From Saccharospirillum sp. (GTDB lineage: Bacteria; Pseudomonadota; Gammaproteobacteria; Pseudomonadales; Natronospirillaceae): DNA of 64,000 nt. Positions 21,029 through 63,150 of this stretch are shown in pieces. The translations under genes were made by a program, and so were the position numbers. Position 1 is the first letter of the stretch. Each line of letters opens with the position of its first letter. The DNA lies in NCBI GenBank assembly GCA_022565595.1, contig JAIUML010000006.1:1-64000 (forward strand), given 5' to 3'. Under the pieces are notes generated by a model, which was not told the DNA's origin, ran no database searches, and saw only the letters and a list, made by a program, of their open reading frames with translations.

Positions 21029-21103
21029 TTGCACCTGATTGTGCAGGAGGCTTGAGCGTATCAGGCCTTACTGGTTAACGATTGCTTGAACTAAGGATAC
21101 TGG

Positions 21104-32333: not shown

Positions 32334-35300
32334 ATGGCCAAATTGTTGCCCAGAGGGCTTGTCTGGATTCTCAGCCTGTTGTTGGTTCTGCTGTTGACCG
32401 CTGGTTGTGACGGTGGCTCGGCTGCTGTTCCGGACGATACCGATACGCCGCCAGCAACGGACCCGGATCAGGACACTGATCCCGACCCCGACCCTGAGCC
32501 CGATCCCGATCCCGATCCAGACCCGGATCCAGACCCGACACTCCCCGATACCTACAGCCTGGGTGGCCACTTGAATGGCCTGCTCGATGGTAATGAGTTG
32601 GTCGTGCAAAACCTGGACGGCGACGATCTGGTGCTGACGGCCAATGGTGGCTTCACCTTCCCGACGGCCCTGGAAGATTCTGCCGAGTTCTCGGTCAAGA
32701 TTGCGCAGCAGCCCGATGCGCCAGTGCAGAGTTGTAGCGTTGCTGCCGGTGAGGGGGTCATCAGTGGTGCCGATTATCAGGACATCGTCATAGATTGCAC
32801 CTTTACCGTCAGCGGCCGTGTTGTCAAAGGGCCTTTCCGGTCGTTGCAGGTTCACGCCCAGCGCTACGAGGCGTCGATCAAAGGCTGGGGAGATGCCTTT
32901 GAAGTCGAAGTCTCGGGAGACAAGTACCACTTCGACGCCATGATTGGCGAGACGTTTAAGCTGGAAGCGACTGGGGCCTTTATTGACGAACTCAGTGGCG
33001 AACTCGTCCAGTTAGCGCAACCGCTTTCTGCCGTCTTTATGGCCGACCCTGAACCCCAGAACGTTCACCTCTTTACCGATCTGGCAGCAGCGATGCTGGA
33101 CGGGCAATGGCCGCCTGATGGCAGCCCGGAAAAGCAGATCGGTGAGACGGAGAAGAATCTCGTTGCTGCGCTGGGCCTGGCACCTGAAACCAGGCTGGGT
33201 GCCCTTTTCCCCGATGAATTTGACGACAAGGCACCGCTGGATGACCCGAACCTGAGTCTTTTGTTGTTGTCCGGTTCTGTCATGAACCTGCCGCGTTCAG
33301 GTGACCAGATGCCTGGCGACTATTACGGCCTCTTGCAGGGCCTGCGCAGCGGCGTACCTGTGGAGCAGGGGTTGTCGGTTCTGGCCGGAATGGATGCTGC
33401 GGATATCTACCAACAGATTCGTGATAGCCAGGCCTTTGGGGAGTTACCCACGCTCGACGATCTGGTCGACGTTACCTGGCTGTGCGACCCCCACTGCGTC
33501 TGGTTTGAATTTGCCGAGCCCAGCATATCGGTAGCGGATGTGGTGGCTTATGAAGCCCGGGGCGAAGCGCTGATTACCGTGCGGCGTACTGGCCTGTCCT
33601 TCCTGTTGGCTAAGGAGCGCATTCGGTTGACGACCACCGAAGGCAGCGCCCTGGCGGGCTATGACTTTCTGGAGACGGACCTCGAGCTGGAGTTTGAAGC
33701 TGGGCAGCGCAGCCTCACTCTGCCAGTGCCGTTGATTGTCGATGCCGTTCAGGACCCGATCAAAACCTTCACGGTCCGATTGTCGGATAGCAGCCTGGCG
33801 GTGGCACGCGGGCAGGCCCAGGTCAGCATTCTGGACGAAATACCAGAGACGGCTCTGGCCCTGGCAGAGGCCTCACTGGTTGATTTCTCGGCCTGTTTCC
33901 TGTTCTCCGGAGCACCCAAAAACCCACTGCTTGGAGAATGCAGCGACAGTCTGGCGCCGGTAGTCAATATCCCGCTGGAAGACCCCTATGCGCTTGGCCT
34001 GGCTTTTGGCCTGCACGCCAATTGTGGCGAAGACGAAGAGTGCGCTCTACCAGGGCCTGAATGGCTGATGGAACTGAGGCTGCTGGCAGAGGAACAAGGT
34101 GAACTCAAGGACAGCATTCGCCTGGCAGATTACCTTTACCCGGCGGATGCGGTAACCAATGTCCGGTTGTCCAGTACGCCTGAGCGCGGAGTGCTGGCGT
34201 CCCTGAACCAACTGACGATTTATGGCTTTTTGTCCGACGCCTGGCAACAGGGCTGGACCGTGCGGCTCAAGGCAAGCTTGCCGTCGAGTGAGGCAGAGGA
34301 TCTGGTGGCCGAGTCCGATCTGCCGGCCTATTTTCCATTGCCTGATCATATTGCCTTTGGCCCGGAGCGGTTGCAGCTGGACCCGGACGACCTTGTGATC
34401 AACACGGCGGCCGACAGTGCAGGCCAGTGTGAGGCGGGCAGTATTCTGGTGTCAGGCACCTATACCAGGCCCTTTTTCTTTATGGAGCAAGAGGTTGCGC
34501 TCTCGGTCGATGGTGAGGTCTGTGTAACGGCCGATTCGGCCTCAACGGAGCCAGCGCTGGTGGTCACTGCCGGCACCATCGTGCTGGATGGCAAGGTCAT
34601 CCCCGTGCCGGATTTTCACCGGGTGTTGTATTCGGCCAACCTTTATCCGCTATTTCAGGAAGGTGAGAACGAGTGGAAACGCCCTGTTCAGTCACTGCCC
34701 TATTTACAGGTGCCCACTCGGCCAGACGGTGAACAAGGCCAGGTGCTGATCAAGATGATTCTGGCTTCCGAACACCTGCCCTTTGGCTACTGGATATCCG
34801 GTGCAGATCTGGGGCCCGATGGCTTTGAACTGTTGTACGCTGGCACGGAAATGATTGTCGACCCCCACCTGAATCCGTCGGACCCTCGTTTTGGTCAGGT
34901 ACCTTCGAATACGGTGCCATTTTACCATGGTGAGCCCGGTACCTTGCTCCTGAGCGATGCCGGCATCACAGCAACCACCCAATTTGCCTCGGGCAGTGGC
35001 CGCAGCGGTTGGCCGAGTGGCGACCTGGATTGGCAGTCGTTCAGTGTTGCGGTCAGCAATAGTCGCCTGGTGTCGGGTGACCTGGATCTGGCGTTCACTC
35101 TGGAGCAGAACACCTCCTGTCGTGAAGCGGCCTGCCTGCCTGGGCAAACGGCAGAGCACCAGGTCAGCGGTAATGCCCAGGTCGGTGCCGATGGCACCTT
35201 TATCGGTGCTGTTGTGGCCGACAGCAGCGACGGTGTTCGCTGGGGAGCCAGGGCCGATGGTGACGCCTGGCAAAGGCCGAACGATTTGCAGCCAGGAGAT

Positions 35301-38300
35301 GCCGCCACCCTCGTCCTGCCGGGCTTTATCGTGCCTGCCGATAGTGTGGCCGCACAGCGATTGCGCGCGCATCGGGCGCAGCAACCGGGCGAGGTTGTGG
35401 CTCATGATCCCGGCTCACCAGCCTACAGGCGCGGCAACTATTTCGCACCGGGCATCAACCTGGGGCCGGAGTACTACGCCAATGCACTGGGCCAGCCAGA
35501 AGTTGGGCAGGGTTTCGATTATGGCGCTCGACCCTTGACCGTAAACCTGGGCAGTGACGAGTTGTCACTGGTGGGTCATACGGCCACCAAGCTGGTGTTG
35601 TCCAACGCCGGTGTGACCGGGGTATTCAATGCCGACCTGTCCGCCATAACAGAGCCACCGCTGGTCTATGGCTACCCCATGGCGTTCGATCGCTTTGCCG
35701 TGCGCCTGGAAAACAACCGGATGGACAAGCGGAACTGGGTCGACGGTGGTATCGACCTGCCTGGTGATGCCGATTTCCCCGTGGCTTTCGAGAGTCTGGA
35801 CATTAACTGCAGCGGCCAACTCGGTACCGCGCGCATCGCTTCCGGGCAATGCGAAGGCGGTTGTGAGCTGGGTGCCTGGCAAGCTCAGACGCGGCTGTTT
35901 GAATTGGAATTCACCAACAGCCAGGGCTTGCCATCGGCCCAATGTTCGGTGGCCGATCAATACCTGACCCTGATGCAGGAAGCCGACTTCCTGGCCCTGG
36001 ATAAATCCCTCCTGCTGGACGTGACCTGGTCTGCCCTTGGCGAGGTCATGCGTTCGACCACTCAGCATCAGGATCAATATCGATTCGATGCCAATGAAGA
36101 TCACCCGGGTTTCCCGATGACGGCCACGGCTGGCGAACTGGGTGAGCCCTGGAATGACAACGGCGGGCGCTATGGCACCGCTCTGCTCAGTGGTCAGGTG
36201 GCGGTCCCTTTCTGGCAGGCGTTGGAAAGCGATGTGCGCCTGGCGAACCGCATCAACTTTGCCGCGATCGAGGCTGAGCCTTCGGTTGTGGCGCCTCGGC
36301 AAAGCCTTTTTGGCGACAGTCCGACCATGCCGCTTGCACTGGTTCAGCAACCCAACCGCAGCCTGGTGCTGGATCTCGCCAATGAGCCCGACTTCGATCT
36401 CTCCGCTCGTTACGAGTGGGGCAATACCGGTTTTGGTTTTTCCTTGCCGGTCTATTACGACCTGACCGACCCCGGCCGCAGCCCGCAGTTTCTGGGTCGG
36501 CGTTGGGAGCAGGATCTGTTCGTGCTCGAAGCCAATGCCGGCATTGACTACATCACCCCGGAACGCACCAAACTCAGTTTTGGCGCCAGTGCGGATTTTG
36601 AGCGATTGCAGGAACTGCGCTTTCAGGTGGACCTGAACAACACCGCCAGTCTGGAAAAAGTCGATGAGTTGTTGATGCAAGCGGGCCTGATTCAGGAGCC
36701 GTTGATCGCCCCCACCCTGGGTGGTTTGTCGCAGCAAATGGAGCGCATTACGAACTTTTCTCAGCAGGGTGTCGATACGGTTCTGGAAAAAGCCCTGCTG
36801 GTTGGGCTCGAGCAAGTTGGTGCCGCCGCTGCGCCGCTGATGCCCACCAACGAAGACCCGGTTGTGGTGTTGGCCAACACCATGGCTCAGGTGCGTACCC
36901 TGCCGGATCAATTGCTGGCACGCATAGACACCGAATTACTGGCACCGGTTTACGCGGAGCTCGATACCCGAGAGTTGCAGTTAAGAGGCTACCTGTTGGA
37001 ACTGGTGACGGACCTGGAGGATTTTGCCAATGAAGTGGAAGGCGCCAAATCGCCAGAGCAACTCGAAGCGGCCATCGACCAGGTGATCAACTATGGGCGC
37101 GGCCTGAAAAACGAGATCAGTGCCATCAGCAACCAGATTCGCCAACCCCTGGCGGATGCCCGAACTCAGCTCGATCGCTTGCCGACCCTGATCAACGAGG
37201 TCCAACTGGCCTTGACCGAAGTCGATATGCTGGCAGAACAGATCAGCGGCTTTGCACAAGCCCAGTGTCAGGTCAGTGGTTCCGGCCTGGGTATGGAAGT
37301 CAATGGCTTCCTGAACAGTGCCTGGCAGCATCTGGATAATCTCCGTGCCGTTCTGGATGTGCTGGAGGGTGGTGAATTGCTGGGCCTGCTGGCCGACAGC
37401 ATTGTCGAGGATCCGGCGACTCGCAATGCCATGGACGACGCCCGCAGAACTCTGTCGCGCAATGCCGAGAGCCTGACGCAGAAGCTTGAAGAAGCGGAGT
37501 CGGCGTTGCGTTCTCGATTGTGTGAATCGGATATTCAGCAGGTGGTCGCCCAGGTACAGGATTTTGTCAACCAGACGCGCCAGGGTGTGGTTGCGATTGC
37601 TGGTTTCGTAGCGGATGTCGAGAGTACGCTGGATCAGATAGAAAACAGCCTGACAACGGTTGAAACCATCATCAATATTCCAATGGAATTCATTATTGGT
37701 CAATTGAATAGCGTCAAGGAGCAAATCAGTCTGGGCGACCAGACCGAGCTGTACTTCTCGGTCGCCGCCATTGATCGGGAAATCGCTCGCGCTACAAACG
37801 ACAACATTACCGTTCTGGTGTCGCGCGAAGAAGACGATGTGGATGTGTTTGATTTCTCCTTTAATCTGGTTCGTGATGGCCTGAGTTTGCAGCGCAATAA
37901 CCTGGCGGAAATTCTGACCGAGCAGATGGATGGACGTCTGCCATTGGCAACCTTCTCGGCCGATCAGTTGCGTCGCTATATCGTCAGCAAAATCATGGAT
38001 TCAGAGCCGGTCAAGGATGTCCGCGAAGCGTTGAATGAGCAACTTGCCGAGCTGGGTCGGCAACTCAACGATAACCTGATGATGCTGGCGGACCAGGCCA
38101 ATGAGGCCATTCGCCAGGCGTTGCAGCAGGTCGAAAATCAGGTCAATGAGGTACTCGAGCAGGCGCAGGCAGCGGTGCGAGATGTGCCGTTGAAAAGCGC
38201 ATCACTCGATGGTTATGGCGTCATTGCGGGCCATGAGCTGGAAAGGGCGCACATTCAAGCCGAGTGGACCATGGCCCCGGCCAGCGAGGGGGAACCCGGC

Positions 38301-39158
38301 AATACCTTTGGTGCCTCGCTCACGGCCGTGAGCTGGAGTGCCAACGACAAGGACATGGCTTGCGACGTACCCGATGCCGCCAGTACCCTGGATGTCACCA
38401 TCGCAGCGATGAACCTGCCGGCTCGTATAGGCACCTCGGACATCACGCTGAAGAAGGTCTACCTCGGCTTTACCCTGAACAATTCCGATAACCCGGCGTT
38501 CGCTTTGCAGCCAACCGGTGTTTTTGGTGGCCTGGCGGTGGTCGGTGATATCGGCTTTACCGAGTTCGTGATTTACGACCCGGCCTTTGCTGCAGGCCTG
38601 GGCAGCCAGGAAGTCTATCTGGGCGCTGCCGCTGGTGCCGTCTTCAGTGACATTCAGGCCGAGGTCGCCTTCCTGGTGGGCCGAACCTGTGATCAGGAAG
38701 TGTTGCTGGAACTGGACCCGGATGTAGCCAAGTTCATACCCATTCCAGACTCGGGTTTCTCCGGGGCTTATGTGCGCGGCTCGGCTTCGATTCCCGTCTG
38801 GACAAATGGCTGCCCGCTGACCATTGGTGTCTCCGCTGATATGGGCGCCTGGGTGCTGGCAGGCCCACCAGTAACGGTCGGTGGTCTGGTCGGTGGCGGT
38901 GCTTATGGCAAGGTGTTGTGCATTGGCTCCTTGCGCGGCCAGGTGCGGGCGCTCGGCAGTGTCACGGCAGACGGCGATATCTCCTTTGTCGGAGAAGGAT
39001 TCGGTGTGGCCGGTGCGGGTTTGTGTGAACCGGCGACCTGGACATCGGTACCGCGTTCACGCGAAGACAGTTGGTGTGGAACGGGCGATGCCCGTTTCCA
39101 GGCAGGCTATCAAAATGGCTGGTCCATCATGGACCTGACCACCAGTGCGGTGCATTAA
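32334..39158 (+). CDS. Giant lipoprotein with Calx-beta domain and long helical region (first gene of the giant operon)
   Basis: The 2274-residue product has a lipoprotein signal ending LLTAGC (Cys25), followed by an Asp-Pro linker (about 36-75). A YSLGGHLNGLLDGNELV-type bacterial surface repeat (about 80-160) comes next. A Calx-beta-like domain (about 390-505) contains ITVRRTGLSFLLA, then GYDFLETDLELEFEAGQ. A beta-rich central region without clear family follows (about 510-1420). A largely helical, coiled-coil-prone stretch (about 1420-1950) has many Gln, Glu and Leu and few prolines. The last 315 residues are Gly- and beta-rich with paired cysteines. I recognise no complete homologue family. 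It is probably attached to the outer membrane. The next gene starts 16 bases after its stop. Confidence 0.8.
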   Translation: MAKLLPRGLVWILSLLLVLLLTAGCDGGSAAVPDDTDTPPATDPDQDTDPDPDPEPDPDPDPDPDPDPTLPDTYSLGGHLNGLLDGNELVVQNLDGDDLVLTANGGFTFPTALEDSAEFSVKIAQQPDAPVQSCSVAAGEGVISGADYQDIVIDCTFTVSGRVVKGPFRSLQVHAQRYEASIKGWGDAFEVEVSGDKYHFDAMIGETFKLEATGAFIDELSGELVQLAQPLSAVFMADPEPQNVHLFTDLAAAMLDGQWPPDGSPEKQIGETEKNLVAALGLAPETRLGALFPDEFDDKAPLDDPNLSLLLLSGSVMNLPRSGDQMPGDYYGLLQGLRSGVPVEQGLSVLAGMDAADIYQQIRDSQAFGELPTLDDLVDVTWLCDPHCVWFEFAEPSISVADVVAYEARGEALITVRRTGLSFLLAKERIRLTTTEGSALAGYDFLETDLELEFEAGQRSLTLPVPLIVDAVQDPIKTFTVRLSDSSLAVARGQAQVSILDEIPETALALAEASLVDFSACFLFSGAPKNPLLGECSDSLAPVVNIPLEDPYALGLAFGLHANCGEDEECALPGPEWLMELRLLAEEQGELKDSIRLADYLYPADAVTNVRLSSTPERGVLASLNQLTIYGFLSDAWQQGWTVRLKASLPSSEAEDLVAESDLPAYFPLPDHIAFGPERLQLDPDDLVINTAADSAGQCEAGSILVSGTYTRPFFFMEQEVALSVDGEVCVTADSASTEPALVVTAGTIVLDGKVIPVPDFHRVLYSANLYPLFQEGENEWKRPVQSLPYLQVPTRPDGEQGQVLIKMILASEHLPFGYWISGADLGPDGFELLYAGTEMIVDPHLNPSDPRFGQVPSNTVPFYHGEPGTLLLSDAGITATTQFASGSGRSGWPSGDLDWQSFSVAVSNSRLVSGDLDLAFTLEQNTSCREAACLPGQTAEHQVSGNAQVGADGTFIGAVVADSSDGVRWGARADGDAWQRPNDLQPGDAATLVLPGFIVPADSVAAQRLRAHRAQQPGEVVAHDPGSPAYRRGNYFAPGINLGPEYYANALGQPEVGQGFDYGARPLTVNLGSDELSLVGHTATKLVLSNAGVTGVFNADLSAITEPPLVYGYPMAFDRFAVRLENNRMDKRNWVDGGIDLPGDADFPVAFESLDINCSGQLGTARIASGQCEGGCELGAWQAQTRLFELEFTNSQGLPSAQCSVADQYLTLMQEADFLALDKSLLLDVTWSALGEVMRSTTQHQDQYRFDANEDHPGFPMTATAGELGEPWNDNGGRYGTALLSGQVAVPFWQALESDVRLANRINFAAIEAEPSVVAPRQSLFGDSPTMPLALVQQPNRSLVLDLANEPDFDLSARYEWGNTGFGFSLPVYYDLTDPGRSPQFLGRRWEQDLFVLEANAGIDYITPERTKLSFGASADFERLQELRFQVDLNNTASLEKVDELLMQAGLIQEPLIAPTLGGLSQQMERITNFSQQGVDTVLEKALLVGLEQVGAAAAPLMPTNEDPVVVLANTMAQVRTLPDQLLARIDTELLAPVYAELDTRELQLRGYLLELVTDLEDFANEVEGAKSPEQLEAAIDQVINYGRGLKNEISAISNQIRQPLADARTQLDRLPTLINEVQLALTEVDMLAEQISGFAQAQCQVSGSGLGMEVNGFLNSAWQHLDNLRAVLDVLEGGELLGLLADSIVEDPATRNAMDDARRTLSRNAESLTQKLEEAESALRSRLCESDIQQVVAQVQDFVNQTRQGVVAIAGFVADVESTLDQIENSLTTVETIINIPMEFIIGQLNSVKEQISLGDQTELYFSVAAIDREIARATNDNITVLVSREEDDVDVFDFSFNLVRDGLSLQRNNLAEILTEQMDGRLPLATFSADQLRRYIVSKIMDSEPVKDVREALNEQLAELGRQLNDNLMMLADQANEAIRQALQQVENQVNEVLEQAQAAVRDVPLKSASLDGYGVIAGHELERAHIQAEWTMAPASEGEPGNTFGASLTAVSWSANDKDMACDVPDAASTLDVTIAAMNLPARIGTSDITLKKVYLGFTLNNSDNPAFALQPTGVFGGLAVVGDIGFTEFVIYDPAFAAGLGSQEVYLGAAAGAVFSDIQAEVAFLVGRTCDQEVLLELDPDVAKFIPIPDSGFSGAYVRGSASIPVWTNGCPLTIGVSADMGAWVLAGPPVTVGGLVGGGAYGKVLCIGSLRGQVRALGSVTADGDISFVGEGFGVAGAGLCEPATWTSVPRSREDSWCGTGDARFQAGYQNGWSIMDLTTSAVH

Positions 39159-39174
39159 AGGAGGGTTGTTCGGG

Positions 39175-42100
39175 ATGTTGTTTATGCGCCAATGGCTTAC
39201 AGTTTTGATTCTGGTACTGATGTCCACATCAGTCTGGGCCGATAGCCCCTTTTATTTTATAGCCAAGCAGGCACCAGAGGGTGCCATGTCGGCCCAGGGG
39301 CAAGACCAGAAGCGCGTCTATTTGCGTTGGGACCTGGTCGAAGGCAACCTGCCGGAAGACATCGCTTATTTCAGTCTGTATAGAGGCGATGAACGTCTAA
39401 AAACCTTTCCCGCCCGTGGCGTGATGAGTGCGGCGCAAATCACCGCGCTCTACCAGGCGCCTTCGGAGCAGCAGCGCTTGCTGGAGACCCTGGGGCAATT
39501 GCAGGAAGAAGCCTTGCTGGAGGGTCTGGGTGCAGGCTTCAATGCCAGCCAGTTTGGGCAAATTTTGCACGATCGCCTGAACGATCAACCCTTCTGGGGG
39601 CATCTGGCGTCGCGCATGGACTTTAACCTGGCCATCGCCCGCTATCGCGGCTGGCATGATCAGCCAGAAGAGCCCGGCACCTACCTTTATGAATTGCGCG
39701 CCCATAACGGAGAAGGCGAAAGCCGTCGCGTTGGTCTGGCCGAGGTCAATACCCTTGAAGCGCAGCAAATACTGGCACCGGAGCAGTTCTTCCAGATCGA
39801 GCAGGCCTTTTGTGATCGGCCCGATTTTCGGGATCACTACAGCGTCGCCTTGAACTGGGCAGAACCCGGTGCCGACAACGCGGCCGATCGTCTTGCCAAC
39901 CAATTATTCATCAGTGGTTACAACCTCTACCGCAGCCGTGACAATGTGGATGACGCGCCACCGCGTGATCTGGCCAGCGAGGCCGCACAGCGGCCGCACG
40001 ATGAACGCGGCCGGGTGATCTTCGACGACCTCGAACGGGTAAACGATACGCTGCTGACCATCACTCCAGACGACGACCCCATGGTACCGGAGTGGCTCGA
40101 AACTCAGGATGACCTGATGACGGCTGGGTTGAAGCCGGGCGATCGGCGTGCCTACTATCTGGTGCCCCGAACCCTGGCGGGCCACTATGGTCCGACGGTC
40201 GAAACCCTGGTGGTTGTGCGTGATATGGCTCGTCCTCCGGCGCCCTGGGATGTACGTCCCTATCTTGATGAAGCCAATCAGAGAGTTGAGCTGACCTTCG
40301 ATGCCATAGGCCTCAACAGCTATCGCGCTGCTTTTGGTCGTGAGCGTCGTTTTTGTAATCTCAATACGGCCCAGGACGATGGCTTTCTGGAATTCGTGAC
40401 CAGTGATGAAGATTGCGCTACCGATGTGCGCCGTCGAGTGCAACTGGAAGTGACGGAGTATCTGGTGTATCGCTTCGATACCTATCACGAAGCCGCTCGT
40501 TTTCAGGACAGCGATGGCGATGGTTATGCTGATCACCTGGAACGGCCTCTGGGCACTCAGTGCCAACCCGTTGAGCCTTTCGGTGGGCAGCGTATCGAGG
40601 TAGAGGAGCAGCGTGTGTCACTGCAAGGTGGCGATCAGATCGTTCTGCTCGATGAGATGCCCGCAAAGGAAAAGGGTGAAGTTTTCTGGTATCGACTTGC
40701 CAGCCGCAGCAAGACTGACCGGCTCAGCCTGCTCAGTGAGCCGGTGCGGGTCAACTTCCCGGACAGGACGATGCCCGAGCCACCTTTGGTAGAAGTAACG
40801 CAACCCGAACGTGGCCTATGCGGTTGCACGGTAGGCGGTCAGTTCGGCAAGGACGATTGGCAGTTCCTGAGTTACATGCCTTCTGCGGGTGCCCTGACCT
40901 TTCAATGCAGCAAGGATGGTTTTACGACCGATGAATATCCTGCGACTCAGGCCATGATCGGCGACAACGATGCCCAGCTTTGCGCCAACCCGGACAAGGA
41001 TTTCTTCTACAACTGTGGCTCCGATTCTGTGCGCACCTTTTTCTATCGGGAAGGCGAAACCGAAGTCAGTTGTTCACTGCCGGCGGATGGAAATACACCC
41101 GGTATGTGTGGCCAGGGTACGGTGGGCGTTACGCCTCAATACTGTGAACAGGATAAAGCAGCACCCGAAGGCGTCGTTGTTGGGCCGATTACCATTCGAG
41201 TGACACCCGTAAATCCGGAGCATTGTGTCACGCTGAATCAACAAGTCAGCGGCACGACTTCGGCGGTTTTAACCAGTTGTGGCAGCACAGAGTCCGAGCT
41301 GGTTTTTGAGCACAGCTTTGGTGAGTTCTGTGGATTTGCAGTCACCCGTGATGCCAATAACAATGTCTCTACGACGACTCAAATCGGTTGTCGCTATGTA
41401 CCCGGCCAATCTGAACAGGTTCGCCTGGCACCGCCTCAGCCGATCAGCATGACCTCGATCAGCAACCGCATGGATCTTGAATGGGCTGCATCGACTCAGG
41501 CGCAGTCTTCGGTAGAAATCGAGCTGAGCCGTTTGTCGCCAGATGGGCTGGCGCCCATTGTTGAGCGTTTGCCAGTAGTGGAATTGAGCGGCGGTGGCGA
41601 TCAACTGACGCAACTGGACATACCCGAACGTGAGGCCGATGAAGAAGAGTGGTGTGTGCGTATGCGATCCTTTGGCCCCTCGGCCATTGTTGGTGAACCG
41701 CGTTACTCCAACTGGAGTGCATCGCTGTGCGATACACGGTTGGCCAACCCGGCAGACCCTCCTCCTCAATGGCTGCCCTGGCCGACGGTGTCTGAGCCAG
41801 AGCAGGGGCCGACGTTGACTGTGCGTGATGGCCAGTCGGTCTATGTGATACGTGGAGCAGGAGGCGGTAGCCAGGTGCCGGTTGCCAATGGTCTGTACAT
41901 TCCATTGGGTGAGTTCACGCTGAACAATGAATACGACTGCCTGCAATTCGTGTACACCTATGACGTGGTGAATTACGAAGACGAAGATCTGGTCGTGCCG
42001 CAACGAATGGATTATCTGGCCGACGTTCTGTGTCGGCCAAGCGCCTATGCCCAGTACAACGGGGTATTGAGCGAACATCGGGATTTCATGGTGTACCGTC

Positions 42101-42420
42101 AGGCCCGTTCACCCGGCGGTGAGGTATCTGATTTTGTTCAGGTCAGCCCAATGATCGATTATGTGCACTGGTTAACGGGCTATTTCCCGCCAACCGCTAT
42201 GGATAATTTTGGTGGTCACTGGGTGCATTGGTTGCGTGATCCCTACATCTGGACCATTGCCAGTGAGCATCGCCCTGAACGTTTGAGGGTCGCATTTTAT
42301 GATCGCGCTGGGTTGAAGTCAGGCTATGACTACCGCTATCAATTTGTCTATTTCGATTCAGAAAAACGCATTCGCAGTTGGCGCAGTTCGGACTGGTTTG
42401 CCTATCAACTGCAAGACTAA
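39175..42420 (+). CDS. Large exported FN3-like protein (second gene of the giant operon)
   Basis: AAAGGAGG precedes the ATG at 39175; an ATG at 39184 is also possible. The 1081-residue protein has a signal peptide (MLFMRQWLTVLILVLMSTSV and WA) with no lipobox. Several segments have an FN3-like form: a WD or LEW strand followed by Y.LYR, as in RVYLRWDLVEG, FISGYNLYRSRDN, EYLVYRFDTYH and MDLEWAAST. One DSDGDGYADHLE calcium-binding TSP3-type motif lies near residue 445. The part from about 545 to 760 is cysteine-rich and may be disulfide-linked. No enzymatic signature is visible. The stop is followed after 15 bases by the next start. Confidence 0.78.
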   Translation: MLFMRQWLTVLILVLMSTSVWADSPFYFIAKQAPEGAMSAQGQDQKRVYLRWDLVEGNLPEDIAYFSLYRGDERLKTFPARGVMSAAQITALYQAPSEQQRLLETLGQLQEEALLEGLGAGFNASQFGQILHDRLNDQPFWGHLASRMDFNLAIARYRGWHDQPEEPGTYLYELRAHNGEGESRRVGLAEVNTLEAQQILAPEQFFQIEQAFCDRPDFRDHYSVALNWAEPGADNAADRLANQLFISGYNLYRSRDNVDDAPPRDLASEAAQRPHDERGRVIFDDLERVNDTLLTITPDDDPMVPEWLETQDDLMTAGLKPGDRRAYYLVPRTLAGHYGPTVETLVVVRDMARPPAPWDVRPYLDEANQRVELTFDAIGLNSYRAAFGRERRFCNLNTAQDDGFLEFVTSDEDCATDVRRRVQLEVTEYLVYRFDTYHEAARFQDSDGDGYADHLERPLGTQCQPVEPFGGQRIEVEEQRVSLQGGDQIVLLDEMPAKEKGEVFWYRLASRSKTDRLSLLSEPVRVNFPDRTMPEPPLVEVTQPERGLCGCTVGGQFGKDDWQFLSYMPSAGALTFQCSKDGFTTDEYPATQAMIGDNDAQLCANPDKDFFYNCGSDSVRTFFYREGETEVSCSLPADGNTPGMCGQGTVGVTPQYCEQDKAAPEGVVVGPITIRVTPVNPEHCVTLNQQVSGTTSAVLTSCGSTESELVFEHSFGEFCGFAVTRDANNNVSTTTQIGCRYVPGQSEQVRLAPPQPISMTSISNRMDLEWAASTQAQSSVEIELSRLSPDGLAPIVERLPVVELSGGGDQLTQLDIPEREADEEEWCVRMRSFGPSAIVGEPRYSNWSASLCDTRLANPADPPPQWLPWPTVSEPEQGPTLTVRDGQSVYVIRGAGGGSQVPVANGLYIPLGEFTLNNEYDCLQFVYTYDVVNYEDEDLVVPQRMDYLADVLCRPSAYAQYNGVLSEHRDFMVYRQARSPGGEVSDFVQVSPMIDYVHWLTGYFPPTAMDNFGGHWVHWLRDPYIWTIASEHRPERLRVAFYDRAGLKSGYDYRYQFVYFDSEKRIRSWRSSDWFAYQLQD

Positions 42421-42435
42421 GGCAAGGAGCGGATC

Positions 42436-45400
42436 ATGATCAGGACAAAGGCACTCATTATCGCCTGTCTTCTAGGGCTGCCTGCTTTCGTCTGGGGCTC
42501 GGCTCTCTTTGATGACCGGGCTGCCAACTTCTGGTTGGTCGACACCGTTGATGGCAAAGTCACCAGCTACAGTGCTGGAGATTGGGTGCTGGATTACGAT
42601 CAACTGACCAACCCACCCGCATTGTCCGGGCCCCATCAGACATTGGTGAACAGCTTACCGAAAAGCTCAGTTTCGATGAGTGCCGGGCAGCCTGGAGTTT
42701 CGGTGATCGGCCTGGCTGAGGCAGACCGCATTCTGGGAGAGGACAGCGGCCCCAAACCGTTAAGAGTACTGCCGGCAGACGGCTATTACACCGAAACTCT
42801 GGCCATTCGCCTGCAAGTGGATGACAGCCTGAGCGGCCATTACATCTTGCGCTGGCGTTTTAATGAAGGTAGCTGGATCTCCGAAACCTTGACGCCTCAG
42901 TCCTTTGACGAGGTGAGCGGTGGTTATCTCGAGCGCGTGCACTACCTGGTGCACGATGGGGACTATGACCTCGAAGTCGAGTTGCGCTCCAACATTGGCG
43001 TGTTGGTGGACGACGTTGTACGCGAATACAAGCTTTACAGCACCCATGAGGATGGCCACCGTCGTGACACCTCAGGCGATGGCATTCCCGATCTGGTAAA
43101 AATCGCCATGGGGTTGAGCCCGCTTTCAGCCGATGATGGTGAGCCGGGTAGCGATGGCAACTGGAGCCGTTTTGACCTCTGGCTGCGTTGCGCAGAGATT
43201 GAGTTTGATGAGGAAGTCTGTGTTGAACCCGAAGATCGGGACAAGGACGGCTGGAGTGATTTTGATGAGGAGCTCAGAGGCACCCGCCCGGATGACCCGG
43301 CAACGCTGACCTTTATCGATGGCCCGGAAGAAGGGAGTGTCGAGCACCAGAATGAACGTCAGCGCTTCAAGGAGTATCCGGCCGCTCGGCGGCTCTATGA
43401 GGTGGAGTATCGACTCGATGGTACTAACCTTGGGATGCCAGTGGACACCCTAAGTGCTACCACCCTTTATGGTGATATTGCCTGGGACCCGGAACGATTG
43501 GTCACCCCGACGGATCTGGACAATGCGCAATTGTCTGAAATCGACGTTGCCGCTTCTCGATTGCGTGAGCTGGCTGATAAAGCTCTGGATGAAAATCAAT
43601 GGCCCGCCATGCGCTTACCCGCCGGTGTCAGAACTCTGGTGCGCGCCAGCCGGGTGGTCGCCGTTGGCGATTCAACCGCACGCCAGGTCTTTTTATTGAC
43701 CTTGCCGATCCAACCCGATTTGACACCCAGGCTATTCAGCACGGTGGCTGATGAATGGGTTGGTGATTGGGACACCGTCGAAGAATGGCGTGCAGGCTAC
43801 CTGAAGTGGCTGAGAGAGACTCTGGTTCAGGATATCAGGCCTGAATTTGATGCCGACCAGTCCCTGGTCTTGCTGGTGCTCGAGCAATTGCTCGCACAGG
43901 AAGCACGACTGAGAGGCATTGGTGGCCTCGAACGTCTGGGCCAGCCCGGTGCCCGCTTGCGCTGGGTTCGCGAGTTCAACACCACCCTGGCGGAGCGTCA
44001 TGAGGGGCACAATATAACGGCCGTTATTGAGCAGCTCGAGAAGGCACTGCTCGACGACGGGTTGCTGAAGGATGATGCTCGGACCATACAGACATGGCTC
44101 GAAGACACACCGGAGGGCCTGGACAGCAGCGCATGGCTGAGACAAAAGCTGGATTTCAATCAGGCAGGGCGTGATCTGGGCTGTTTTGTCAGTGATGATG
44201 ACTGGGCCAGATTGAACGAAGAAGGCAACGAAGTTCTGCTCGACCAGTTCCTCACCGACTGCCCGACGCATTACCTGGGTTCGGAGCTGCTGCAGTGGCA
44301 AACCGAAAGTCTCGATTTGCGTTACCGGCTGCGGCTGATGTTGCTGGCCGAAGGCCTGATGCGCCTCGGCCATGATAACAGCCTGGCTTCGGCTGCTGCG
44401 GATTCCGACGAAGACGGCCTGACCAATGCCGATGAAATCATGCGGCGGCCCTATCGCTGGCACACTCTGCCCTGGTTGGCCGATACCGACGGCGATGGCC
44501 TGATCGACAGTGTAGACCGTTGCCCACTCGACCCGCTTAACGGTTGTACTGGCACACCGGATGGCAATCAACTTTATCTGGGCTCAGATCTGACACTGTC
44601 CAAACCTTACCAGATGGGCATGGTTCTGCTCAGCATTGAACTGGATCGACCCGCACTGGAAGCCATCAGGGTGAGCTATCAGGTGTTGGCCAATGATGGC
44701 GACAGTGCCATCGATGGCGAAGACTTTATTGCCAGCAGTGGCGAGGTCTGGTTGCAGCCGGGCCAGTCGGCGGTGTTGATACCGGTTACGCTGCTTAACG
44801 AAGGTGAAGGCTCGACCTTCCGCCTTCAGGTAACAGAGGTCGAGGGTGCCAGCCTCGCCGGCAGCGACTCCACCCTGGTCACCCTGACGCCATACGAACC
44901 CTCTGAGCCCAGGGCGGTGTTGCTGGCCAGCAATCTGGTGGTGCACGAGAACGAGTCGATCACCCTCGATGCCAGTGCCAGTTACGACCCGGATGGGCGG
45001 CCGTTGAGCTTTGTATGGCAACCGGTTTCTGGCCCGGATGTTGTGCTCAGCAACTCGGAAAACGCCATCACCGAATTGACGGCGCCAGAATTGTTGGCAG
45101 ACACCTCTGCGCTGCTTGAAGTGACGGTGAGCAACGATGCCGGCCTGACCAACAGCGCTGAGTTGTCCTTGCTGATTACCGCAGAAGACGACCCGCCCAT
45201 AGTGCTGGCCACGCCCCAGTTCAACAAGGAGCGTGGTGCTGAACTCTACATCAACTTTGCCGAGCTGGAAGCCTATATCGAAGACCCTGAGCAGCAGCCG
45301 TTGAGCTTCTTTCTGCGGCCGAACCAGCCCCTGGGCGCACGCGTCAGTGAAAGCGGTTCGGGATTGTTGGTTGATGGGGGAATCGCCGAGGCCGTGTTGT

Positions 45401-46680
45401 TGGCGCCTGAAGAACCGAGCCAGTTCTCGGCAGTGCCCTGGGGGCAAGGCGGTGTCGCCTTTATCAGTCGTGATGCAACTGGCCATCACTCAGTATGGGT
45501 CTGGCACTATAGCTTTGGTTTGATGTTGATTCATAGCACTGAACATGACATTGATAATCTGATGGCCAACCCGGCGTCAGACTCGCTTTACTTCGATGAA
45601 ACAATAGCCGATAAAACCGTACTCAATTGGCTGTCTCCTGGAAACTCCGTGCAGAAGTGGAGTACGGATGGCTTGCCGGAGGGTACCGATGCTCGATTGG
45701 CGAGCCCCTTTACCGAAGATCTGTATTTCTGCCGCGACAATATGACCTGGTCCTACCTGGACGTGAAAACCGGCAACCAGGTCAACAGCGAGTACCCCTG
45801 TAGTGGCGAAGCGGCGAAGGTCATCGCCAATAAACAACAGGTCTGTCTGGTGTCTGATGATCTCCTCTGTACTGAGCCTGGCAGCATGAGTTCCGAGGTG
45901 AGTAATTGGCTGTCGCTGGACGGTGCAACGATGCGTGGACTACATGCCTTTGGTGAGCTTACCGTGGTGATGGCTGATTACGGTACTGAGTATGGTTTTT
46001 ATGCGCTCTCCCCGACAGAACCCATGCAAGCCGTGGCGTTTCATTACGTCGACAGTGCTGACGTGAGCAGTGCGGAACTTGCCTACACCCTGAACACGAG
46101 CGGTGATGTTCTGCTCGGTTTGTTGTTGGTGGATGGCGGGTATGATGTGATTCGCTGGGAGCCCGGTGATAACGATGCCACCCTGCTGGCGAGTGGTTTG
46201 CTGGCGGGTGTGCCGCAGGAGGCTGATTCACCCAAACCCCTGATCGAGATGAATGGTCAGTACTACTGGCTGGCCGATGTTGGTGTGGACCGCTGGGCCG
46301 TGCAACGTATTGACCCGGAGTCTGGCAGCGTGCAGACCCTTAACGAATTGACGGTCGGCAGTTATGGTGTTGAGTCCATACAAGGTTATCAGTTGGTAAG
46401 CTCGCCTCGAGGCCTGGTGTTGTCTGGTCAATATGGAGATGGATTGTGTTTCTGGCAACGACTCGATGGCAGCGGCGTTTTACGTTCGGTTCATTTCGAC
46501 GACGTTCTCTGTGAGCAGAGTGTCACGGCCAGCTCGATAGAGCTTCATCGGAAGGGTGAGCGCTATTACCACATTCAGGGAGGTGACTTCCTGGGCAGTA
46601 CCGGCTTCTCGGTCGATGTCAGTGATGGTGTCAACGAGGTTGAGCTGCCGATCAAGCTGATCATAGAGGAGGCAGACTGA
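42436..46680 (+). CDS. Large exported TSP3/Calx-beta/PKD-type protein (third gene of the giant operon)
   Basis: The 1414-residue product follows an AAGGAGCGG site and has a signal peptide (MIRTKALIIACLLGLPAFVW with GSA). Calcium-binding TSP3-like motifs are DTSGDGIPDL (about 211), DRDKDGWSDF (about 268), DSDEDGLTNADE (about 656) and DTDGDGLIDSVDRCP (about 683). A Calx-beta-like domain (about 720-810) and a PKD/REJ-like domain with ESITLDASASYDPDG (about 835-915) follow. Residues about 970-1370 form WD- or propeller-like repeats of short strands. The stop codon overlaps the next start (TGATG), so translation is coupled. The protein probably needs calcium for folding outside the cell; its function is unknown. 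Confidence 0.8.
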   Translation: MIRTKALIIACLLGLPAFVWGSALFDDRAANFWLVDTVDGKVTSYSAGDWVLDYDQLTNPPALSGPHQTLVNSLPKSSVSMSAGQPGVSVIGLAEADRILGEDSGPKPLRVLPADGYYTETLAIRLQVDDSLSGHYILRWRFNEGSWISETLTPQSFDEVSGGYLERVHYLVHDGDYDLEVELRSNIGVLVDDVVREYKLYSTHEDGHRRDTSGDGIPDLVKIAMGLSPLSADDGEPGSDGNWSRFDLWLRCAEIEFDEEVCVEPEDRDKDGWSDFDEELRGTRPDDPATLTFIDGPEEGSVEHQNERQRFKEYPAARRLYEVEYRLDGTNLGMPVDTLSATTLYGDIAWDPERLVTPTDLDNAQLSEIDVAASRLRELADKALDENQWPAMRLPAGVRTLVRASRVVAVGDSTARQVFLLTLPIQPDLTPRLFSTVADEWVGDWDTVEEWRAGYLKWLRETLVQDIRPEFDADQSLVLLVLEQLLAQEARLRGIGGLERLGQPGARLRWVREFNTTLAERHEGHNITAVIEQLEKALLDDGLLKDDARTIQTWLEDTPEGLDSSAWLRQKLDFNQAGRDLGCFVSDDDWARLNEEGNEVLLDQFLTDCPTHYLGSELLQWQTESLDLRYRLRLMLLAEGLMRLGHDNSLASAAADSDEDGLTNADEIMRRPYRWHTLPWLADTDGDGLIDSVDRCPLDPLNGCTGTPDGNQLYLGSDLTLSKPYQMGMVLLSIELDRPALEAIRVSYQVLANDGDSAIDGEDFIASSGEVWLQPGQSAVLIPVTLLNEGEGSTFRLQVTEVEGASLAGSDSTLVTLTPYEPSEPRAVLLASNLVVHENESITLDASASYDPDGRPLSFVWQPVSGPDVVLSNSENAITELTAPELLADTSALLEVTVSNDAGLTNSAELSLLITAEDDPPIVLATPQFNKERGAELYINFAELEAYIEDPEQQPLSFFLRPNQPLGARVSESGSGLLVDGGIAEAVLLAPEEPSQFSAVPWGQGGVAFISRDATGHHSVWVWHYSFGLMLIHSTEHDIDNLMANPASDSLYFDETIADKTVLNWLSPGNSVQKWSTDGLPEGTDARLASPFTEDLYFCRDNMTWSYLDVKTGNQVNSEYPCSGEAAKVIANKQQVCLVSDDLLCTEPGSMSSEVSNWLSLDGATMRGLHAFGELTVVMADYGTEYGFYALSPTEPMQAVAFHYVDSADVSSAELAYTLNTSGDVLLGLLLVDGGYDVIRWEPGDNDATLLASGLLAGVPQEADSPKPLIEMNGQYYWLADVGVDRWAVQRIDPESGSVQTLNELTVGSYGVESIQGYQLVSSPRGLVLSGQYGDGLCFWQRLDGSGVLRSVHFDDVLCEQSVTASSIELHRKGERYYHIQGGDFLGSTGFSVDVSDGVNEVELPIKLIIEEAD

Positions 46681-49600
46681 TGCGTACCGCCTTATGGATG
46701 CTGATCCCCATTGTTTTGCTGGGTTGCAACACTGAAACGGCCAAGTGGGATGCCTCCAATTCCACCAGTGCCGATGCAGAGAACCAGGCGGAATCTCCGA
46801 ACGCCTTGCCGGTTGCAGAAGAACCCAGAGCTGCGGACGCAGAAAACACCACGCCAGACTGGTTACGCTACGGCGGTCCAACCCCCTGGGTACAGGACAG
46901 TGACGGCGATGGCATCCCCGATGAGTTCGATGCCGATCCCTATAACCCGCCTCTGGTGGTTACCTCTGGGCCAGCACTGCGGATTGACCGGCTTTATACC
47001 CCGAGGCCTGGTGTTGAGCTGGACGATCAGGTGATGCCGGGTGCGGATCTGGTTATTGAATCCACGGGGCTGTTTCACTATGGCGGCCCCTGGTGGCTGC
47101 GCTGGCACCATGCCAATGGCATTTTCGCTCAGGAAGTCTTCCCGGATGGCGAGGGTCGCATAGCGGTTCAACAGCCGGAAATCATGCCACATGCGGTCAG
47201 TCTGGTAGCGGCAACCTATGCCACCACTGAACATTCGGTGCAGGCACTCAAAGCCAATACACCACTGCTTTACCCTCTGGAAGAACCGTTGCGTGCCGGT
47301 GCTCAGGTCACCTTGAAAGGTGAGCGCCTGGATCAGATGCGCGCCTTGCGTTTGGGTGACCAGCCGTTGCCGGTTGATCAGATACGGCCGAATGCCATTG
47401 TTGTCAGCTTGCCTGACTTGCCGATCAGCCAGACATTTAACTGGGAAGACGACCGCGGCGATTATTATTATCTGCAAGCGACGATCATGCGACCGGTGAC
47501 GATAGATACGGCGAATCAACTCATTGAGCCGCTGGACTGGTCCGTTCTGACGGATTCCGGGCTGCTTCGCCTGGGCGAGGAAGCGACCTACTGGGTCCCA
47601 GCTGGTATGAGCCGGACACTGCGTTTCTACCAGGATGACAACCCCTTGTCGGTGAGTGCCGTTGTCTTGCCGCACCAGACCAGGGTCGAGCTGGGTGCGC
47701 GCAGTTCTCTGAAAGAGTGGATTTGGTCCTATCACGTTGGGGCGCACACTACAGCAAACCATGACTATGGCTATTCATTACCCCTGGTTGCTGATCAACT
47801 GTCGGAGGTTGAAAGCCTGTTGCTGGATGGCTTGAATGGTGATCTGAACGCAGGCTTTTACGCACGCCAGGCCTTCCATAGCCAGGTTAAAGACATTGCC
47901 TATTGGCCCGAGCCCGCTCAGGTGCTGCAGGAGCGTTCATGGTGGCGTCTGGAATTTCTGGGGGACACCGTAGAAGCCATTATGGCCGGTGGCAACCTGT
48001 ATCAGCCCATCGTCAAGGTGATTCTTGAGGATGCGGTGTCCGGTACCTCCAGTTATGCCAATATCAATATTGGTTACCACCGTAGCCTGACCGAATGCAC
48101 TGGTATGGGTGCATTGAGTCGCCCGTCCGACATGTGGCCATCTGACCTCTGTGTACAGAATATGGGGCCTTATTATGTGAGCTTGCGTGTCGTTGACTCA
48201 CGAAGTGGCGAAGTGTTGAAAGATCACATTACCCATCCCTTTGATACGGATATGCTTGGTGGCTCCAATTTCGGCTTTTTTAACGTGCCTTCTGTCGCTT
48301 ATTTGACCGGCAATAACCAGTCCCTATGCAAAATGCGTCCCTGTCATGTTGAAGTACTGACGGGTGGGTTAGGCTGGCTGGCGAGTTACGAACTGAACCA
48401 AAGTGAGCGCGCTATTGCCAACCAGGTTTTGGGTCGGACTTTGTTGGAGCTGGTAGTGATGCCTGCCATTGGTTGGGCTACCAACTCCTCAAGCAACAGT
48501 AAAGGCGTCAAATGTATTGCTGAATCGCTCTTGGTACCTTCAGTGGCCGATACTTTTAATTACGGTGTGGCAATAGACGCCTGGATGCAAGGCGTTAACC
48601 AGTCCAGTACTCCCTCAGAGCTTACTTTGGTTACAGCAAGTACCATTATTTCCCCTGTAATAGATCTTTTAATCGGTATGGCAGGGAATGATCGTTTTGC
48701 TGAGTGTTTAATCGAATTGGGAGAAAGTACTACAAATCAAATGGTGAGTAGCGCGTCCAATCGACTGGGTAGTGCTTCGCGCAGCGCCAGTGTTCCAGTA
48801 TTTATATTGAACAGGCTTAATGACGCCTATCAAGGTTGGCAACTATTGACGGCTCCCCGCAAAATCATTTTTGATGTTGCACCCAGAGCCTCGATCACCG
48901 AGATTACCACCAGCAGCGGTCGTTTCGATGAGCGAGTGCTCTATTCCAATAACGAAAATGACTTTTTAAGGCTCTATGGCACCCATCTGGCAGACCCGCT
49001 AGACGATGGGTACTGGCCGACACTGGTGTTGACGGATCGCAGTGGCCGCCAGGAGCGGTTGGCGTTGAACAGCAGCCATGCATTCGATACTTCTGATATG
49101 TCCTGGGTGGACTTGCGTATCCGCGTTCAGGACTTGCGGCCCCTGGTACAAGGTCTCAGTGGCAACGTCTTTAATGTGAGCCTGGAGTTGGATCATGGCA
49201 ACTACAGTGAGTTCCCGGACGGTGTCTTGCCATTGCCGGGCACCGAGGTCGAATGGATCGGAGATGCCCGTTTGACCGGGGTGATCCGGCCCATTTTGAT
49301 GCCCGGTGAGCGAGGCATATCACTTTATGGTGAAAACCTGGGGCTGTTCAATCAGCCGGGTTTGGCGCTGGAATTCACCAACGAAGATGGTGAAATATTC
49401 CCCGCCGACCGTGTCCTGTACAACTCGTCAACCAGTATACGCTTTGGTTTAAGTGAGGATATGCCTCCGGGGCGCTATCACTTGACGCTGCTGCTGGGTC
49501 TGATCAAGACACTGGATCTGGATCAGCCCATTGAGGTGGTGAGTGCCGATTCCTCGTTCGTCGGCTTACTCGACAGAGGGCCGGTGCTGGACGACGAAAT

Positions 49601-49916
49601 AGAGATGTGGTTGCTAACCGGTAATGGTGATGCATTGACACCCTTTGGGGAGCCAGTCACTTTTGCTATTCCGTCACCCAACAAGGACTATTCGATGATC
49701 ATAGCCTGGGAGCAAGACACTCTGATGAACTTCGCTGAGCAGGTTCGTGACCCAGCGAGAATTCAAATCTATTGCGTTGATGGTGGCGATGACGGTACCT
49801 GTACCTGGCGCGTTCAAGGTCGCATAGTGGGTTTTCTGGGGCAAGTCAGCCTTTTTAATGAGAGTGGCAGCCTTGCCGAGGATGCCTTCTTCGAGTTCGA
49901 CCTGAATTACCAATAG
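46680..49916 (+). CDS. Large lipoprotein with IPT/TIG-like domains (fourth gene of the giant operon)
   Basis: The start overlaps the preceding stop. The signal ends IVLLGC, giving a 1078-residue lipoprotein. A TSP3 motif (DSDGDGIPDEFDADPYNP, about 75-92) is followed by IPT/TIG-like segments: one near 195-255 with LRAGAQVTLKGERLD, another near 858-945 with ILMPGERGISLYGENL. A middle stretch (about residues 590-730) is more hydrophobic and helical, and its DNA (about 48460-48870) is visibly richer in A and T than its surroundings. The gene ends the operon; no clear intrinsic terminator was seen before the next gene at 50070. Function unknown. Confidence 0.78.
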   Translation: MRTALWMLIPIVLLGCNTETAKWDASNSTSADAENQAESPNALPVAEEPRAADAENTTPDWLRYGGPTPWVQDSDGDGIPDEFDADPYNPPLVVTSGPALRIDRLYTPRPGVELDDQVMPGADLVIESTGLFHYGGPWWLRWHHANGIFAQEVFPDGEGRIAVQQPEIMPHAVSLVAATYATTEHSVQALKANTPLLYPLEEPLRAGAQVTLKGERLDQMRALRLGDQPLPVDQIRPNAIVVSLPDLPISQTFNWEDDRGDYYYLQATIMRPVTIDTANQLIEPLDWSVLTDSGLLRLGEEATYWVPAGMSRTLRFYQDDNPLSVSAVVLPHQTRVELGARSSLKEWIWSYHVGAHTTANHDYGYSLPLVADQLSEVESLLLDGLNGDLNAGFYARQAFHSQVKDIAYWPEPAQVLQERSWWRLEFLGDTVEAIMAGGNLYQPIVKVILEDAVSGTSSYANINIGYHRSLTECTGMGALSRPSDMWPSDLCVQNMGPYYVSLRVVDSRSGEVLKDHITHPFDTDMLGGSNFGFFNVPSVAYLTGNNQSLCKMRPCHVEVLTGGLGWLASYELNQSERAIANQVLGRTLLELVVMPAIGWATNSSSNSKGVKCIAESLLVPSVADTFNYGVAIDAWMQGVNQSSTPSELTLVTASTIISPVIDLLIGMAGNDRFAECLIELGESTTNQMVSSASNRLGSASRSASVPVFILNRLNDAYQGWQLLTAPRKIIFDVAPRASITEITTSSGRFDERVLYSNNENDFLRLYGTHLADPLDDGYWPTLVLTDRSGRQERLALNSSHAFDTSDMSWVDLRIRVQDLRPLVQGLSGNVFNVSLELDHGNYSEFPDGVLPLPGTEVEWIGDARLTGVIRPILMPGERGISLYGENLGLFNQPGLALEFTNEDGEIFPADRVLYNSSTSIRFGLSEDMPPGRYHLTLLLGLIKTLDLDQPIEVVSADSSFVGLLDRGPVLDDEIEMWLLTGNGDALTPFGEPVTFAIPSPNKDYSMIIAWEQDTLMNFAEQVRDPARIQIYCVDGGDDGTCTWRVQGRIVGFLGQVSLFNESGSLAEDAFFEFDLNYQ

Positions 49917-54785: not shown

Positions 54786-55050
54786 GTTTAAAGCTAAAGG
54801 AGATAACCGGGCGCATATTTAGTCTATAAAAATATATTCAATAAAAACAAATGCTTAGTCCTGTCTGCCCCTTTCCCGTTTGCCTAAATGGACTCGCCTG
54901 CCTTTTCCGCAGTAAAGAACCCCCTATCAAGGGTAGGATCATCGTTCAACCACTGCTAAACTGAAAGTGATGCATTCATGGCCTCCGCCGATTGCGACCA
55001 CCAGGGAATGGCATCGATCGTGAGTGAACGTCAGTCGACCGGAGTCAGTG

Positions 55051-58170: not shown

Positions 58171-58182
58171 GGCACTGACATT

Positions 58183-62014: not shown

Positions 62015-62070
62015 TATTGACGATGAGAGCCTATCACTATGTTTAGATGCATGCTACTCAGGAGGCAATT

Positions 62071-62700: not shown

Positions 62701-62710
62701 GGAGCGTACC

Positions 62711-63124: not shown

Positions 63125-63150
63125 CATCGATTAAATGATAGAGAAGTCTT

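Follow-up and report, generated by a model that had tools for sequence, protein, structure and literature searches.

Many giant bacterial adhesins are single proteins that have export machinery as partners. RTX and BapP-type adhesins display giant calcium-linked surface modules and are delivered by type I secretion. Here we consider a different arrangement, a block of four consecutive genes for very large exported proteins, P1 to P4, carried by a 64,000-nucleotide stretch of DNA from Saccharospirillum sp. (Gammaproteobacteria; GenBank assembly GCA_022565595.1, contig JAIUML010000006.1, positions 1 to 64,000 of the forward strand), the whole of which is termed the window below. Homologues of the first three genes follow one another in the same order in three phyla, and the block has the look of a transferable cell-surface system for contact or capture that has not been described before. 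With the terms tried in the open-licence literature, no paper was found to describe it by its title or the start of its abstract. An initial annotation, made from the letters alone, had proposed that the four genes make one surface complex, perhaps stabilised by calcium; taken as a whole, this interpretation is partly supported.

Judged by the features described for it, TasL of Vibrio fischeri would be the nearest precedent for the mode of action, a precedent that does not itself argue for membership. TasL is a putative lipoprotein of more than 380 kDa with FN3-like repeats, encoded in a type VI secretion system (T6SS) island and promoting cell-cell contact (PMC9040878); it is thought to reach out from the outer membrane, making specific cell-cell contacts (Speare et al., 2022, PMC9040878). 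In the same organism calcium promotes aggregation (PMC9972734). TasL is, however, a single gene of a T6SS island, outside any operon, whereas the block encodes three to four proteins. Among these, P1 is a lipoprotein without a called FN3 domain, and P2 is FN3-like without a lipid anchor. The TasL precedent, a giant FN3-like lipoprotein promoting contact, nevertheless raises the question of whether the block makes a contact factor that helps a T6SS to hold its target. T6SS-like genes (VgrG, PAAR-like and ClpV, by eye) do start 5.1 kb downstream of the block in the window, but this neighbourhood is a feature of the window only, no T6SS gene being recognised by eye in the approximately 10-20 kb beside the other copies that were read, and such a role is highly improbable.

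Other described systems resemble parts of the proteins. Residues 15-69 of P1 weakly match SslE (E 0.001, 16.5 bits against a cut-off of 3000) and an AcfD homologue (E 0.13), and an Asp/Pro-rich linker follows the anchor, as in SslE/AcfD; the match is, however, confined to the low-complexity P1 anchor, and, unlike SslE/AcfD-type surface proteases, P1 to P4 have no peptidase domain above cut-off in Pfam or NCBIfam. RTX repeats are shared by P3 of two myxobacterial loci (M806 and M836), but the block proteins have N-terminal export signals and would not use type I secretion; in the window, Pfam finds no RTX repeat in P1 to P4, and no ABC exporter with a membrane fusion protein was recognised by eye beside the block. 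Stretches of P3 are also found in the gliding-motility lipoprotein CglD (E 6.9e-6, 24.1 of 400 bits) and in the M36 peptidases of NCBIfam (E 8e-15, 53.1 of 1500 bits), both far below cut-off, and by position this overlap consists of shared TSP3 and PKD-type modules only. In one Campylobacterota genome, a DUF6603-like giant protein followed in tandem by an FN3 protein (L149) recalls the P1-P2 pair, but it has no P3 and its DUF6603 match is below cut-off. Kinship of P1 with this giant was dropped (hhalign probability 1.3), and the pair (L149 7579-16001, the first protein exceeding 2100 residues) is analogous, not detectably related. With the PADLOC anti-phage models the best match was at E 0.045, in the helical part of P1, with none for P2 to P4, short of membership in any such system.

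Running the P1-P4 profiles on the open reading frames (ORFs) of candidate loci established 20 loci with P2 homologues, in Gammaproteobacteria, Myxococcota and one Sulfurimonas metagenome-assembled genome (MAG; MAG taxonomy is taken as deposited). They are the window, S. salsuginis, S. impatiens, Alcanivorax sp. S71-1-4, three Thalassolituus, Glaciecola sp. MH2013, a gammaproteobacterial MAG, G167, G335, the Sulfurimonas MAG, G598 (a fragment) and seven Myxococcota (M400, M403, M806, M836, M874, M965, M970). P1 lies directly upstream of P2 on the same strand at all 19 checkable loci, the contig ending in G598, and P3 lies directly downstream, again on the same strand, in 18 of 18, contig ends having excluded one Thalassolituus and M403; the P2/P3 junction is often an ATGA-type overlap. 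The initial annotation had asked whether the genes keep together in the same order elsewhere, which holds for P1-P2-P3, and it had considered that homologues scattered singly, or proteins each belonging to a known unrelated family, would speak against a joint complex. Full-length P2 was never found alone in the surveys, and the four proteins did not turn out each to belong to such a family.

The block is sporadic. In drawn samples that overlap at least in the window's own genome, P2 was met in 8 of 390 genomes of the order, 3 of 369 of the class (one match being an FN3 cross-match), 7 of 282 Myxococcota, 2 of 150 Campylobacterota (one match again an FN3 cross-match) and 1 of 398 of the phylum, the latter being the window itself; G709 and G1108, FN3 cross-matches of the P2 profile, were rejected as members. 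Among 96 relatives screened, P2 was present in 3 and P4 in 2, with P1 matches in 29 and P3 matches in 23. Most of these were partial because of shared N-terminal module, Calx-beta, PKD or TSP3 stretches, and partial matches of this kind (N-terminal module or Calx-beta for P1, PKD and TSP3 for P3) were not counted as members. A GTDB-based collection yielded 16 loci when scanned with the P1 alignment and none with P4 alone; where P1 relatives lack P2 (L084, L089, L092-L095), the contig ends there. One of these contigs, labelled "Helicobacteraceae" (L094), was not counted as a Campylobacterota case, its GC content being 61.5% against 33.5% for the Sulfurimonas contig L087, and it may be mis-binned. 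P1 of the Sulfurimonas MAG (L087 2-4918) has one in-frame stop near the C-terminal domain. Carriage of the block by phages or plasmids was rejected, since tblastn of P2 against a plasmid collection (72,556 records) gave no match, and among viral contigs neither the P2 profile nor that of the P1 C-terminal domain picked up a relative.

Pairwise distances correlate at 0.96 between P1 and P2, 0.92 between P1 and P3 and 0.93 between P2 and P3 over 15 of the 20 loci (L088, L087, M403, M970 and G598 left out), a correlation that would also arise from linkage alone. A single clade uniting the copies of the window, S. salsuginis and S. impatiens is rejected by the approximately unbiased (AU) test, with p values of 3e-10 for P1, 1e-15 for P2 and 0.012 for P3; this Saccharospirillum group was set by taxonomy, but the test was run after the trees had been seen, with a simpler model and a quick search. 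In the trees the copy of the window and that of S. salsuginis fall together with Alcanivorax (support 94, 66 and 97), whereas the window's LolA-like, porin-like and TetR neighbours are 77, 58 and 69% identical to those of S. impatiens and 71, 54 and 59% to those of S. salsuginis. Neither of these two relatives has the block within the 7-12 kb that were read beyond the three neighbours. Because the kinship of the neighbouring proteins differs from that of the block and relatives are without the block at that place, P1-P2-P3 sits at different sites and appears to move between genomes as a unit. That the four might be independent exported proteins merely sharing a promoter is very remote: linked genes always show similar trees, and P4 comes and goes, but the P1-P2-P3 order is kept across three phyla and through transfer.

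The window and S. impatiens sites may not be fully independent, as they have a neighbour locus in common: the S. impatiens block adjoins a glycoside-hydrolase/sugar-ABC locus, and a similar locus in the window ends approximately 16 kb upstream of P1. Regulator included, the two loci lie at 10811-16384 of the window and at G001:C12 of S. impatiens. This neighbourhood (a glycoside-hydrolase-like gene and a sugar ABC transporter, named by eye in both genomes) could fit a scaffold for the capture of a polymer or glycan in nutrient use, where TIG, PKD and lectin-like modules would hold the substrate for other enzymes. The P4 profile resembles SGBP-B, a surface glycan-binding protein, at E 0.0037, and one P3 has a weak H-type lectin match. 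These glycan-type matches are weak, however, and at the other loci read no hydrolase or TonB receptor could be recognised by eye as an immediate neighbour of the block. By eye, too, a Sus-like SusC-type TonB receptor with its SusD partner was recognised next to none of the copies in the window, Saccharospirillum, Alcanivorax and Thalassolituus. A capture scaffold is an unlikely account of the block, though one to keep in mind.

In the window, the four tandem frames were re-derived with the lengths and spacings first annotated (Table 1), the spacings being 16 and 15 bases followed by a 1-base overlap of P3 and P4. Good ribosome-binding sites had been seen at every gene; they are clear for P2 (ggaggg), P3 (aagga) and P4 (gaggagg), but that of P1 (caggga) is weaker. 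The export signals were confirmed as lipoprotein, Sec, Sec and lipoprotein, P1 and P4 having lipoboxes (in P4, LLG-C16 with Asn at +2) and P2 and P3 Sec-type leaders by eye. On the operon strand, promoter- and terminator-like matches number 0 in the junctions, but also 0 just before P1 or after P4, so that the scan says little about the transcript; promoter matches are no commoner than in shuffles (11 against 8.5 +- 2.9). The block lies between a TetR-type regulator on its upstream side and, on the other side, an MFS transporter (names by eye). Full-length homologues of P1, P2, P3 and P4 in S. salsuginis have 52, 55, 46 and 44% identity, those of P1, P2 and P3 in S. impatiens 38, 38 and 32%. 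For one Thalassolituus pair the ratio of nonsynonymous to synonymous substitution rates (dN/dS) is 0.09, 0.12 and 0.14 in P1, P2 and P3, with a dS of about 2, near saturation; in P4 of the same pair dS is saturated, and no ratio is possible. Of the four-gene unit first proposed, the P1-P2-P3 core stays together, whereas P4 is an add-on restricted to gammaproteobacterial genomes. The view that the block has no enzyme or secretion ATPase agrees with Pfam and NCBIfam, which find no catalytic domain or secretion ATPase above cut-off in window P1 to P4.

Table 1. Genes of the block and their features in the window (positions in the 64,000-nucleotide stretch)
Feature	Position	Strand	Description	Basis
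P1	32334..39158	+	2274 aa giant lipoprotein, first gene of conserved core	ORF and homologues
P1 lipobox	32397..32408	+	T-A-G-C25 (after L21), Asp at +2	direct reading
P1 N-terminal module, residues ~74-156	32553..32801	+	in other proteins of the genus; absent from S. salsuginis P1	
P1 Calx-beta, residues 391-502	33504..33839	+		Pfam PF03160, E 5.7e-13
P1 helical/coiled-coil-like region, residues ~1430-1990	36621..38303	+	limits approximate	coiled-coil type matches
P1 C-terminal domain, ~300 residues	38253..39155	+	best conserved stretch of P1, with five invariant Cys and without a named relative	
P2	39175..42420	+	1081 aa, Sec-exported, Cys-rich, FN3-like	ORF and homologues
P2 calcium-loop motif, residues 445-456	40507..40542	+	DSDGDGYADHLE	alignment
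P3	42436..46680	+	1414 aa, Sec-exported; TSP3-like loops, PKD, variable C terminus	ORF, Pfam
P3 N-terminal TSP3-like calcium loops, residues 211-283	43066..43284	+	key residues invariant in 12 rows	
P3 second TSP3-like cluster, residues 656-696	44401..44523	+		alignment
P3 PKD, residues 833-912	44932..45171	+		Pfam PF22352, E 2.9e-9
P3 variable C-terminal part, residues ~1000-1414	45433..46677	+	no Pfam match in window copy	
P4	46680..49916	+	1078 aa lipoprotein, accessory gene in gammaproteobacterial genomes	ORF and homologues
P4 calcium-loop motif, residues 73-84	46896..46931	+	DSDGDGIPDEFD	

P1 has a conserved middle, at residues about 1000-1500, and a lineage-specific N terminus that is largely gapped in Myxococcota. 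One G003 protein carries the N-terminal module of residues 74-156 several times over, and the module also matches a phage family that has no name. The Calx-beta domain of the initial annotation lies in P1 and passes the Pfam cut-off, and the sodium/calcium exchanger matches of the PDB profile search correspond to this domain in other rows of the alignment; the same search also matched coiled coils and viral spikes, which were discounted as an effect of composition. Across 15 rows the C-terminal domain has 27 invariant columns, of which five are Cys, and it is present at 18 of the 19 P2 loci whose sequence includes the end of P1. It has no PDB match better than E 1.5, and no Pfam match rises above cut-off; FAD_binding_4 (best E 0.0044, below cut-off, in 3 of 15 members) was set aside as Gly-rich chance matches. 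A lipobox is found by pattern in 9 of 10 gammaproteobacterial P1 proteins, that of the window being missed by the pattern (Thr at -3) and counted by eye; the window shares Asp at +2 with two Thalassolituus, the residue there being otherwise Gly or Ser.

P2 matches no named family above cut-off. FN3 gets no Pfam call in the window protein (P0002), but two proteins matching part of the P2 profile do carry Pfam fn3. Its alignment shows invariant Cys residues, and D445, D447, D449, G450, D453 and E456 of the calcium loop are invariant in 13 rows; with 7 further loci the loop is present in 20 of 20. In P3, the TSP3-type DxDxDG loops are read directly in the sequence and are found by pattern in six further copies (M806, M836, M874, M965, M970 and G598). 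The idea of calcium stabilisation draws support from these conserved loops, calcium binding itself being what the motifs would predict. P3 is organised as a base conserved to about residue 800, a PKD domain for which the earlier PKD/REJ assignment passes the Pfam cut-off, and then a divergent part, mean identity to the window copy falling to 14-18% over residues 901-1400. A module scan of the C-terminal part covered six P3 proteins: FG-GAP_2 repeats occupy it in one MAG (E 5e-51), a lactonase-type propeller in G167 (E 4e-8), RTX repeats in M806 and M836 (E 4e-48 and 1.5e-42); in M874 it is PKD together with an H-type lectin match short of the cut-off, and in Glaciecola it consists of PKD/cadherin-like modules. 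P3 of M965 (L131/L132) has 26 TSP3-type loops by pattern, mostly in its C-terminal half, and one myxobacterial P3 ends, by eye, in what we take to be a PEP-CTERM-like tail.

Very large module-rich proteins, conserved calcium-loop motifs, Cys conservation in P2 and the long TSP3 array of M965 would also suit a matrix or sheath with a structural role, comparable to a surface layer held by calcium or to a scaffold for biofilm and with no specific target. The swapped C-terminal modules of P3 suggest specific targets, however, and the occurrence of the block in so few genomes of the order would be unusual for a basic part of the envelope, making a matrix rather improbable.

P4 lies directly behind P3 at seven loci (window, S. 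salsuginis, Alcanivorax, two Thalassolituus, Glaciecola and, as a divergent copy, G598); in the third Thalassolituus it is on another contig, behind an ORF unmatched by the P3 profile. The first six of these loci form one branch in the P1, P2 and P3 trees (support 100, 99 and 97), with G598 outside it, as seen for P2 and P3 only. P4 is missing behind P3 in S. impatiens, G167, G335 and the Myxococcota M400, M806, M874, M965 and M970, where sequence beyond P3 is present. In the gammaproteobacterial MAG, a different lipoprotein of approximately 990 residues fills the slot (L152, and L091 from 17975 onward; its first 447 residues have no Pfam match), and a weakly P4-like TIG protein sits on a separate contig. 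Like P2, P4 matches no named family above cut-off, and a TIG module in it is weakly seen, one of seven homologues matching at E 0.0025. Loop residues D73, D75, D77, G78, D81 and D84 are invariant in 7 rows. At +2, the P4 copies have Asn, Glu, Gly, Gln, Ser and Gly, and G598 has Asp; the lipobox of T. maritimus P4 was missed by the pattern, Asn at +2 being read by eye.

That the genes keep their order even when transferred speaks for one functional unit, the domain modules for an extracellular role, and the conserved base with exchanged head of P3 for recognition. We put at roughly even chances the reading that the block encodes an outer-membrane-tethered, calcium-stabilised adhesion or recognition assembly, its single operon inherited and transferred as a unit. 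This reading builds on the observed conservation, gene order, joint descent, joint transfer and modularity of the proteins and on their conserved calcium-loop motifs. It would entail a surface location with export beyond the outer membrane, a physical complex, disulfides, calcium binding and an adhesive function, all predicted from sequence. P1, lipidated in gammaproteobacteria, would anchor the assembly; it has a long helical or coiled-coil part and closes with a Cys-containing C-terminal domain. P2 would be a disulfide-rich, FN3-like spacer or connector. P3 would bring a conserved calcium-loop base bearing an exchangeable distal module (propeller, RTX, PKD, TSP3 array or lectin-like) that touches the target, with P4 as an accessory lipoprotein of gammaproteobacteria, and calcium would rigidify the loops. 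Expression may be controlled locally in several hosts through adjoining two-component or LuxR-type regulators. The block has response regulators or histidine kinases as neighbours in T. maritimus, G025 and G167; LuxR-type regulators adjoin it in M806, M836 and G167, and a GGDEF protein does so in Glaciecola. Ten proteins were scanned, nine of them picked for their regulator-like appearance; the tenth, upstream of P1 in M806, is a beta-propeller protein. Beside the Saccharospirillum and Alcanivorax copies no regulator was recognised, except TetR in the window.

Several points weigh against an assembly of this kind. The M970 locus has no detectable P1 C-terminal domain, its P1 matches lying in the middle only. 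The two lipid anchors of the initial annotation hold for P1 and P4 of the window but fail for Myxococcota, where the anchor would differ because the lipobox pattern is found in 0 of 6 P1 proteins. The window P1 has Asp at +2, likewise 2 of 9 other gammaproteobacterial P1 proteins, and in Escherichia coli this residue is the inner-membrane retention signal of lipoproteins. P4 is not always present, and its divergent G598 copy is without the calcium loop. No dedicated exporter was recognised with the block. Finally, the named modules occur in secreted enzymes too: the PKD part of P3 is shared with M36 peptidase models, and the lactonase propeller family includes enzymes.

A more specific proposal, held tentatively and at less than even odds, is that P1-P2-P3 form an obligate three-protein surface machine, a contact device passed ready-made between phyla, in which a conserved anchor and connector would accept interchangeable P3 heads, with an optional fourth lipoprotein. 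Three giant exported families kept together across three phyla and after transfer would imply that several proteins build one surface structure, conserved at its base and changeable at its head. The block would offer a testable model for the choice of surfaces or partner cells by environmental and predatory bacteria, and many "hypothetical" giant proteins would be assigned to one system.

Other features of the window deserve mention. Downstream of the block, the T6SS-like cluster (55024-63474) comprises, by eye, VgrG, DUF2169/pentapeptide proteins and a PAAR-like protein and, where the window ends, a ClpV-like ORF encoded on the minus strand. Upstream, at 18641-23716, two adjacent lipoproteins have a common N-terminal repeat and an FN3-like stretch, the second also having a long YVTN-like propeller; they are possibly a duplicated pair with swapped heads. 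Elsewhere, a gammaproteobacterial run (L148 2555-11597, by eye) begins with genes for an FN3 protein, a 378-residue exported protein and a barrel-like protein of 732 residues, continues with a PKD/propeller-like lipoprotein and a histidine kinase, and may be another surface system.

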